Assembly: GCA_028712155.1 (NCBI GenBank)
Contig: JAQTQO010000010.1
Span: forward strand, 1-41,847
Origin: Patescibacteria group bacterium
GTDB taxonomy: Bacteria; Patescibacteriota; Patescibacteriia; Buchananbacterales; GWA2-38-13
Length of the DNA: 41,847 nucleotides
Direction of reading: 5' to 3'
Both the position numbers and the translations under genes were made by a program. The notes beneath the pieces were generated by a model. That model made no database searches. It was given only the letters and a program-made list of their open reading frames with translations, and was not told the DNA's origin. Shown piece after piece: positions 9,114 to 10,533 of the stretch (position 1 is the stretch's first letter; every line of letters starts with the position of its first letter).

Positions 9114-9150
9114 AAAAAAATAGCCCGCAGAGAATGCATCTCTACGGGCT
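9114..9150 (-). terminator. Terminator of the 256-residue orphan gene
   Basis: AGCCCG-AGAGA (9122-9133) pairs with TCTCT-CGGGCT (9139-9150), one mismatch, followed on the minus strand by ATTTTTTTC. Confidence 0.85.
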
Positions 9151-9178
9151 TCGAATGTGCACAGCGGAAGGTGCGGCG

Positions 9179-9949
9179 TCAGGCCGCGGGCGTGATGGTG
9201 ACGGCGTCACCCGGCTTGATGTCGGCGATCACATCGGATGCCTGACGCTCTCCCCACCTGGCCCTGGGATGCACCCAGAGATCGAGCAGGTGTTCATCGT
9301 TGCCGCCGTTGCGTACAGCGAGCTCCGCGAGGTCATCCCGCCCTCCGAGGTGTCCCTTGCGGAACGGCACCTGGAGCACGGGTTGCCGGGCGATCTGTAC
9401 GGCGACCGCAGCGCCCGTGTCGCACGCCTGGGGGTGCGCCCACATCGTGACGGAGTTGAACTCGCCGACGTGCAACACCACCGGCGTTGCCAGAAGCGGA
9501 ATCGCGACGCTGACTTCGGTCGCCTTCGACGGCCCGCCGGTGGCGAGGATCGACCGGACCTGCTCGGCGACATCCGCGGTCCAGTGGTAGGGGTTATAGC
9601 CGACGTAGCCGGCCTGACGGAGAGAATCCGAACCGACGAGCGCCAGCACCGCGGGATCGTTCACCAGGCAGTGCACACCGCCCACGAGTTGCGCGTACAC
9701 CAACTTGGTTGGCGAGGCGCCGACCGGCACGCTACAGCTGCCGCACGGGGTGATGTAGCCGACGACGATGACCGGCTCATACGGATCCGGCGCGGCGTGC
9801 TGGTGCACCCAGAACGCGGCGTCGAAATTCGACGCGGTCACCGGATGGTGGACGAACGCGACGTGGTGTTTTCCCTCCTGAATCCCCCGCCGGAGCACCC
9901 GCAGGGCGTTGTGGGTGACGTTGGTGACGAGCACAATCTTCGCGCTCAT
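9179..9949 (-). CDS. Conserved-looking orphan protein, 256 residues
   Basis: A soluble protein with no signal or membrane segment, starting MSAKIVLVTNVTHNALRVLRRG. The start at 9949 is preferred because GAGGAGG lies about 8 nt upstream. The N-terminal half alternates hydrophobic strands and loops (IVLVTNV, VAFVHHPV, PVIVVGYITP), suggesting an alpha/beta fold, with a Cys pair CGSC and several His. The C-terminal half has DLWVHPRARWG and ends in IKPGDAVTITPAA. I do not recognise the family. It lies 330 nt downstream of a SAM-I riboswitch with two terminators between, so control by that switch is possible but unproven. A separate weak promoter (10138-10165) and a structured leader precede it. 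Confidence 0.7.
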   Translation of the reverse strand: MSAKIVLVTNVTHNALRVLRRGIQEGKHHVAFVHHPVTASNFDAAFWVHQHAAPDPYEPVIVVGYITPCGSCSVPVGASPTKLVYAQLVGGVHCLVNDPAVLALVGSDSLRQAGYVGYNPYHWTADVAEQVRSILATGGPSKATEVSVAIPLLATPVVLHVGEFNSVTMWAHPQACDTGAAVAVQIARQPVLQVPFRKGHLGGRDDLAELAVRNGGNDEHLLDLWVHPRARWGERQASDVIADIKPGDAVTITPAA

Positions 9950-10135
9950 GATGGCTTCCTCCTCACTAAAGTTCTGCCTTGTTTTCAAGTTGCGGACCGG
10001 CCCCACGCGACACAAGTCGTGAGGAGCAGCGTAGGTAATCTTCCTGATTACCCCGCACCAATGTTGCAGCTGAAACCCATGGCGGAACGCTTCGCCAGCG
10101 TCGGTGTAGGGCTATTCGCCCTGCGCGTTCCGCGA
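9950..10135 (-). other. Structured leader of the 256-residue orphan gene
   Basis: GCGGAACGC (10082-10090) pairs with GCGTTCCGC (10125-10133), enclosing GGGC/GCCC (10109-10121). A second stem, GGTAATC (10034-10040) with GATTACC (10046-10052), extends to outer GCG/CGC. No known consensus was recognised. The stems could be a cis-regulatory RNA. Confidence 0.45.
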
Positions 10136-10137
10136 AT

Positions 10138-10165
10138 ATCTTATCCGGTCAGGAGATATCACCAA
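10138..10165 (-). promoter_or_regulatory. Weak promoter for the 256-residue orphan gene
   Basis: Minus strand TTGGTG, 16-nt spacer, TAAGAT. Confidence 0.35.
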
Positions 10166-10201
10166 GAAATTAGCAACGGCAGTGGCAACATTGGTACGGG
10201 G

Positions 10202-10279
10202 TTGATTTCCTCTCGCCATTCACCTTCACCCCGCCTTTTTCGAAAAGGGCGGGGTTCGGCATCTGGCGGTGGAAATCAA
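10202..10279. repeat. 78-nt multi-tier inverted repeat
   Basis: Outer arms TTGATTTCC (10202-10210) and GGAAATCAA (10271-10279), middle arms CGCCA/TGGCG, and inner arms ACCCCGCC/GGCGGGGT (10228-10255) around a TTTTTCGAAAA centre fold one inside another. It lies between the riboswitch terminators and the orphan gene. Confidence 0.7.
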
Positions 10280-10312
10280 AAAACACCCTTCCGCGCTATG
10301 AGGGGAAGGGTG
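10278..10312 (-). terminator. Second terminator after the SAM-I riboswitch
   Basis: CACCCTTCC (10284-10292) pairs with GGAAGGGTG (10304-10312), followed on the minus strand by TTTTTTG. It lies 13 nt beyond the T-run of the first terminator, with no room for a gene between them. Confidence 0.8.
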
Positions 10313-10325
10313 CTTTTATTAACGT

Positions 10326-10350
10326 AAAAAACTCTTGGGGAACAAGAGCT
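10326..10350 (-). terminator. Riboswitch expression-platform terminator
   Basis: CTCTTG (10332-10337) pairs with CAAGAG (10343-10348), followed on the minus strand by TTTTTT. Its position 17 nt after the aptamer P1 helix fits an intrinsic terminator controlled by ligand binding. Confidence 0.8.
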
Positions 10351-10366
10351 TTTGCGTAAATGACGC

Positions 10367-10481
10367 GATTATCTTCCCCAACTACGGGCTGGAATTGGCA
10401 CCTAACATCCCACCAAAGGCGGGATTGGTTGCCGGTCGCCATCGGGCCAGTACCCTTTACAGACGACACTCTGGATAATCC
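10367..10481 (-). promoter_or_regulatory. SAM-I (S-box) riboswitch aptamer
   Basis: Read on the minus strand, P1 is GATTATC (10474-10480) with GATAATC (10367-10373). Next come CAGAGTG, AGGGTACTGGCCCGATG, then ACCGGCAACC, a P3 hairpin ATCCCGCC/GGTGGGAT, and TTAGGTGCCAATTCC. The words TGGCCC-x-ATG, GGCAACC and GGTGCCAATTCC are the most conserved blocks of the SAM-I family, and they occur in the right order and spacing. SAM binding normally stabilises P1 and favours the downstream terminator. What is odd is the target: two terminators and an inverted repeat follow, and the next gene is an orphan rather than a known methionine gene. Confidence 0.93.
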
Positions 10482-10505
10482 TTATTGAAATGTCAAAGTA
10501 TCCCT

Positions 10506-10533
10506 ACTGTAGCAAAACCAAAAAAACAGTCAA
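10506..10533 (-). promoter_or_regulatory. Promoter of the riboswitch transcript
   Basis: Minus strand TTGACT, 16-nt spacer, TACAGT, placing the start about 18 nt before the aptamer P1 helix. Confidence 0.6.

Follow-up and report, generated by a model that had tools for sequence, protein, structure and literature searches.

On the minus strand of the window (the whole 41,847-nt stretch of DNA analyzed here), a single SAM-I (S-box) riboswitch aptamer is followed by two consecutive terminators and an orphan gene, and we consider it probable that the element acts in cis as a double-terminator OFF switch for this one gene. SAM-I switches are unsurprising for this group of bacteria; what is new is the double terminator and a conserved link to orphan genes, which recurs in relatives from the same order.

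The aptamer matches the Rfam model RF00162 at positions 10481 to 10366 (minus strand) over the full length of the model (1 to 108), scoring 46.7 bits (E 1e-7) against a gathering score of 44.4 bits, and it is the sole Rfam match in the window. The model alignment keeps the segments that form the SAM pocket: AGAG (J1/2), GCAACC and GGUGCC (internal loop of P3), and AAGAUAA (3′ strand of P1). With a score above threshold and its core ligand-binding motifs intact, the SAM-I riboswitch claimed in a preliminary description of this DNA stands: judged on its sequence, the element is genuine, and SAM binding is predicted. One aptamer is present at the locus, not the two that make up a tandem SAM-I switch. 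Upstream, a promoter-like site (TTGACT-N16-TACAGT, with an extended −10 TG; 10533 to 10506, minus strand) is recognized by consensus match, and the minimum-free-energy fold of positions 10481 to 10278 (−79.9 kcal/mol, z −5.4) contains the aptamer together with both downstream terminators, which bears out the earlier claim of a promoter and two terminators around the aptamer.

Terminator T1 (AAGCTCTTGTTCCCCAAGAG plus six T; 10351 to 10326, minus strand) consists of a hairpin at 10351 to 10332 and a T-run at 10331 to 10326, and terminator T2 (GCACCCTTCCCCTCATAGCGCGGAAGGGTG plus six T; 10313 to 10278) of a hairpin at 10313 to 10284 and a T-run at 10283 to 10278. The two are 12 nt apart, and both have counterparts at the equivalent position in nine order relatives. 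A simple terminator scan reported neither on the minus strand (T1 was reported on the plus strand only), and T2 was missed because its loop exceeds the limit of the scan. A candidate switching strand, TTGGGGAAGATAAT (10381 to 10368, minus strand; the P4 3′ strand, joining segment, and P1 3′ strand), is complementary to both terminators (inverted repeat I8): in the window, UUGGGGAAGAUAA fully complements the T1 segment UUCCCCAA and, along seven bases, the T2 segment CUUCCCC.

Complementarity of the aptamer 3′ strand (GGGGAAGAU) to T1 and T2 goes beyond that to other terminators of these genomes. By duplex energies at ten order loci, the cognate T2 and T1 beat 210 other terminators of the same genomes (Fisher p 1e-5 for T2 and 1e-3 for T1), although the loci share ancestry and the combined p values overstate their independence. 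Among five f2 genomes, the T2 stem displays compensating substitutions (GCUAA/UUAGC, GCCAA/UUGGC, GUCAA/UUGAC, and GCUGA/UCAGC), and the AUCU segment is unchanged. G003 and G006 have GGGAAAG or GGGGAAAG as their switching strand, and their T1 contains CUUUC or CUUUCC. Folding energies give the order of states that a kinetic switch needs: before the 3′ arm of T2 has emerged, the antiterminator beats the ligand-free aptamer by 3.5 to 9.8 kcal/mol (at seven of the seven loci computed), and once T2 is fully out, the aptamer-plus-terminator state is lowest. Computationally, then, the locus has an expression platform in which terminator and antiterminator are mutually exclusive, as seen from the UUGGGGAA/UUCCCCAA pairing and from the energies.

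Both terminators may obey the one aptamer. Their tandem arrangement sets the unit apart from the 49 metK-linked SAM-I loci of the class, none of which has it. Alternatively, only one of them responds to SAM and the other is a constitutive fail-safe, which would reduce the unit to a conventional SAM-I OFF switch plus a leaky extra terminator; this reading is plausible, if on balance doubtful. Either T1 or T2 could play the fail-safe part, since complementarity of T1 is weak in several genomes and that of T2 in G003 is unremarkable against dinucleotide shuffles. Across loci, the T2 complementarity is significant against such shuffles (p 2e-4) and that of T1 is no better than they are (p 0.34, in a test confined to the initial 70% of the hairpin and thereby clipping part of the match in the window). 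A single terminator is, moreover, the arrangement at most SAM-I loci of the class. A strong constitutive terminator in series, however, would silence the orphan at all times, as most relatives lack room for another promoter, and UCUU/UUCCCC-type complements are retained in both terminators.

Under the OFF switch with a double terminator that we favor, transcription would start near position 10500 (minus strand). With enough SAM, P1 and P4 of the aptamer would hold UUGGGGAAGAUAA, allowing T1 and T2 to fold and RNA polymerase to be released, with T2 catching polymerase that leaks past T1. When SAM is low, the freed strand would base-pair to arms of both terminators (UUGGGGAA to UUCCCCAA of T1, and GGGGAAG to CUUCCCC of T2), polymerase would pass T1 and T2, and the orphan, which has a terminator of its own, would be expressed. 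An extension of this mechanism, to which we give slightly less than even weight, is that one aptamer hands GGGGAAGAU from T1 to T2 to produce a very tight OFF state, and that the small proteins so controlled evolve fast and belong to an undescribed branch of the SAM or methionine response of Patescibacteria, separate from metK.

The unit is present beside rny in 9 of the 11 order relatives (it is absent in G001 and G007), where it runs from promoter and aptamer through T1 and T2 to a tiny orphan with a terminator of its own. Rfam detects the aptamer in six of these genomes (G004, G005, and G008 to G011), all of which are ordered aptamer–T1–T2–short ORF–rny, the ORF with a strong Shine-Dalgarno sequence. 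Equivalent units in G002, G003, and G006 were located through a search for rny; their aptamers had escaped Rfam because of long inserts in P2 or P3. An order-specific model whose training set included neither these three genomes nor G008 recovers all four, at 68.9 bits in G002, 54.0 in G003, 61.0 in G006, and 46.3 in G008. By eye, clpP lies upstream of the unit in G002 and G006, and it also precedes rny in the genome of the window. G003, like the latter genome, has an additional, separate metK switch.

Eight of the nine relatives have the orphan ATG 18 to 63 nt past the T2 U-run; in G011, the distance is 129 nt. A span of 18 to 63 nt has no space for a promoter, a leader, and a Shine-Dalgarno sequence, indicating that the orphan is transcribed through both terminators. 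A terminator-like hairpin follows the orphan in the order units, the exceptions being stretches too short to tell, and promoter-like sites stand ahead of rny in several of them; as such, the units look monocistronic, with rny a neighbor and not the target, and control of rny by the riboswitch was rejected as an explanation. RNase Y, the rny product, has been implicated in the turnover of SAM riboswitch RNA in Bacillus subtilis (PMC3542257). The loci at which a SAM-I/orphan unit lies upstream of rny are L030, L031, L033, L035, L039, L040, L207, L209, and L210, and in a further genome (G022, locus L032) such a unit is also within 2 kb of rny.

Behind the orthologous element stands a small orphan in all nine relatives and never a methionine gene, and this favors a new SAM-linked gene, one of the two readings first offered for the locus. 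The methionine or SAM gene that usually, though not by definition, accompanies SAM-I switches is thus missing at the present locus and in the order relatives alike. The orphans of the relatives are 54 to 125 aa in length and have no sequence relation to the 256-aa orphan of the window. One family consists of those from G002, G008, G010, G005, and, weakly, G003, with one helix and three strands; AlphaFold models this family confidently (pLDDT 86.5), and fold searches of the G008-family model against PDB and viral structures yielded no match at E < 0.001. The G005 member (L039:7581-7955, minus strand; 125 aa) resembles, by eye, a protein of the 69-aa family that has been duplicated internally. 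A second, zinc-ribbon-like group includes the orphans of G009, G011, and G006, and two orphans are singletons, those of G004 and the window. It is the control unit, placed next to a small gene that changes fast, that is conserved, and not the sequence of this gene. A natural guess is that the orphans are proteins needed when methionine or SAM is short.

The orphan of the window occupies positions 9949 to 9179 (minus strand), starting with ATG behind a strong Shine-Dalgarno sequence (GAGGAGG), and the unit ends at terminator T3 (9150 to 9122, minus strand), found by the terminator scan. Its codon score (0.225 per codon, versus 0.183 for rpiB) and codon usage resemble those of other genes in the window; the antisense ORF at 9134 to 10327 (plus strand) scores −0.046 and was ruled out as a real gene by its codon usage. 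Nothing in Pfam, NCBIfam, PHROGs, PDB, or phage records matches the orphan, and a search of genome contigs gave no homologue. The best hit among the 381 genomes of the class has an E value of 0.012, and an AlphaFold model of the orphan alone was set aside at a mean pLDDT of 38. The Shine-Dalgarno sequence, codon score, dedicated terminator, and lack of any family match together indicate that the ORF is a real, lineage-specific gene, in keeping with the earlier view that what follows the switch is an orphan and not a recognizable methionine gene. A hairpin that possibly sequesters the Shine-Dalgarno sequence (CTCCTCAC with GTGAGGAG; 10026 to 9959, minus strand) is predicted by folding: positions 10026 to 10019 pair with 9966 to 9959, which contain the Shine-Dalgarno sequence, and enclose three inner hairpins. 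Such pairing could add a level of translational control to that exerted by the riboswitch.

Between T2 and the start of the orphan lie 328 nt, a gap given earlier as 330 nt, which is mostly an inserted repeat: 228 nt of it (10277 to 10050) are one copy of a palindromic repeat, subtraction of which places the orphan start about 100 nt past T2. The copy consists of a left hairpin (GATTTCC..GGAAATC, 10277 to 10204, minus strand, with an inner ACCCCGCC hairpin), recognized by folding and repeat comparison, and a core (AACCCCGTACCAATGTTGC...GCAACATTGGTGCGGGGT, 10203 to 10050), recognized from its copies in the genome. The repeat family has the form AACCCCGYACCAATKTTGCC...GGGGCGAATAGCCCC...GCRAAATTGGTGCGGGGT, with four more strong copies in the genome (C8:28303-28485, C37:26870-27020, C33:26666-26816, and C33:27465-27614), diverged copies at C16:18065-18256 and at about 900 to 1150 of C41, and weaker relatives in G007 and G008. 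The copies inspected begin immediately after the T-run of a terminator, and their inner stem varies with compensating changes from copy to copy. Since the repeat is common to other contigs, it supports the assignment of the window contig to this genome. Three strong copies (L158, L159, and L160) precede purC, purA, and a hisI-like gene, as identified by eye, all of which function in purine or histidine synthesis, through either chance or regulation; behind one copy, no gene was seen on its strand. A second riboswitch hidden in the leader was considered and rejected, the segment being this palindromic repeat that is also found beside purC, purA, and hisI-like genes. A promoter scan found no promoter-like sites between T2 and the orphan of the window.

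In the genome of the window, clpP and rny are adjacent on another contig (C21) and the switch is absent from between them, so the unit has apparently moved to its present site beside rpiB. The window gene could consequently be a chance neighbor, as it is unlike the orphan of every relative, and the copy could be a relic that left the clpP–rny site, lost the small orphan that it ancestrally controlled, and today stands ahead of a gene unrelated to it, with a repeat inserted behind T2. We regard such a relic as unlikely: the promoter, aptamer, T1, T2, and their complementarity are all intact, and the orphan that follows shows coding bias, a strong Shine-Dalgarno sequence, and a dedicated terminator.

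Less likely still is that the terminated RNA acts in trans as a small RNA, like SreA of Listeria monocytogenes, with the gene behind it a bystander. Transcripts ending at T1 or T2 would be short and structured, some 170 to 230 nt long, SreA itself works in trans as well as in cis (PMC8079631), and the window gene is 328 nt away. That distance, however, is mostly inserted repeat, and the orphans of eight relatives are so close to T2 as to be transcribable only through it. These spacings, and the lack of a promoter-like site after T2 in the window, weigh against the purely trans-acting RNA that the preliminary description had entertained; an additional trans role of the terminated RNA is possible but unneeded under cis control of the orphan. 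It is very improbable that the element is a SAM-I variant responding to a different ligand, for example spermidine: variants do exist before genes outside sulfur metabolism, but those that sense spermidine are altered in J1/2 and the P3 internal loop (PMC10853860), whereas the pocket segments here agree with the SAM-I consensus and persist across the order alignment, in which AGAG and CAAC are invariant and the third segment is GGUGC or AGUGC.

The early expectation that riboswitches of this class would be out of place in a reduced CPR genome does not hold: 104 of the 381 genomes of this Patescibacteria class carry a SAM-I switch, and in the present genome another, scoring 32.2 bits, lies immediately before metK, with a terminator-like hairpin. 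Of 103 SAM-I places examined, metK follows 49, and about half of the switches in the class precede genes other than metK (gene calls in the class follow a simple rule, making the first-gene numbers approximate). Few of the 39 non-metK first genes scanned, which include the window orphan, match a Pfam family: there are two methylenetetrahydrofolate reductases, one methyltransferase, one SAM hydroxide adenosyltransferase, one cytosine methylase, and a few more. In several families of the class, one protein family turns up repeatedly downstream of SAM-I switches (at L026, L077, L079, L089, L099, L108, L113, L118, and L140); defined as a blastp cluster of 11 gene calls, it looks like a conserved SAM-linked gene. 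At L037 and L125, the switch is followed by a protein of ~290 aa (methyltransferase-like by eye) and then a homocysteine S-methyltransferase-like gene, and at L023:330-634 (G019) two tandem SAM-I aptamers stand ahead of an orphan gene.

Compared with SAM-I riboswitches such as that of B. subtilis yitJ (RF00162), the element shares the sequence and structure of the aptamer, a terminator/antiterminator platform, and the predicted OFF direction, but it has two consecutive terminators per aptamer and an orphan in place of a sulfur or SAM gene. Tandem, pseudo-cooperative SAM-I doublets likewise place two checkpoints in series for one ligand, as outlined in the available part of a review of tandem riboswitches (PMC9481103), whereas a single aptamer serves both checkpoints here; no one-aptamer, two-terminator architecture is described in that part of the review. 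It does mention a selfish element directly behind a riboswitch terminator, a group IIC intron beside a SAM-I terminator, although the element in our case is a palindrome of 150 to 230 nt and not an intron. SreA (PMC8079631) is also a SAM-I RNA terminated at high SAM, but it lies ahead of a transporter operon, and its trans target is known. In Clostridium acetobutylicum, a SAM-I switch is similarly not directly before a methionine gene; there, however, the switch runs antisense to a methionine operon (PMC2258182), and no real antisense gene exists at our locus. The rimP leader (PMC2965389) combines tandem terminators in one attenuator, with an antiterminator for the upstream one, but it has no known small-molecule aptamer and controls a different gene. 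Within the literature searched, which was limited to papers available without subscription, there is no precedent for tandem terminators with a SAM-I switch.

The layout of one aptamer with two terminators is testable in vitro on a single template. Beyond its architecture, the recurrence of the unit beside small genes of unknown function in most relatives points to an unstudied set of SAM-controlled genes. Riboswitch targets are among the few routes by which orphan genes of uncultured bacteria can be linked to a metabolite, and because about half of the SAM-I switches found in this class precede genes other than metK, most of those scanned lacking a Pfam family, SAM offers a concrete handle on what these orphans do.
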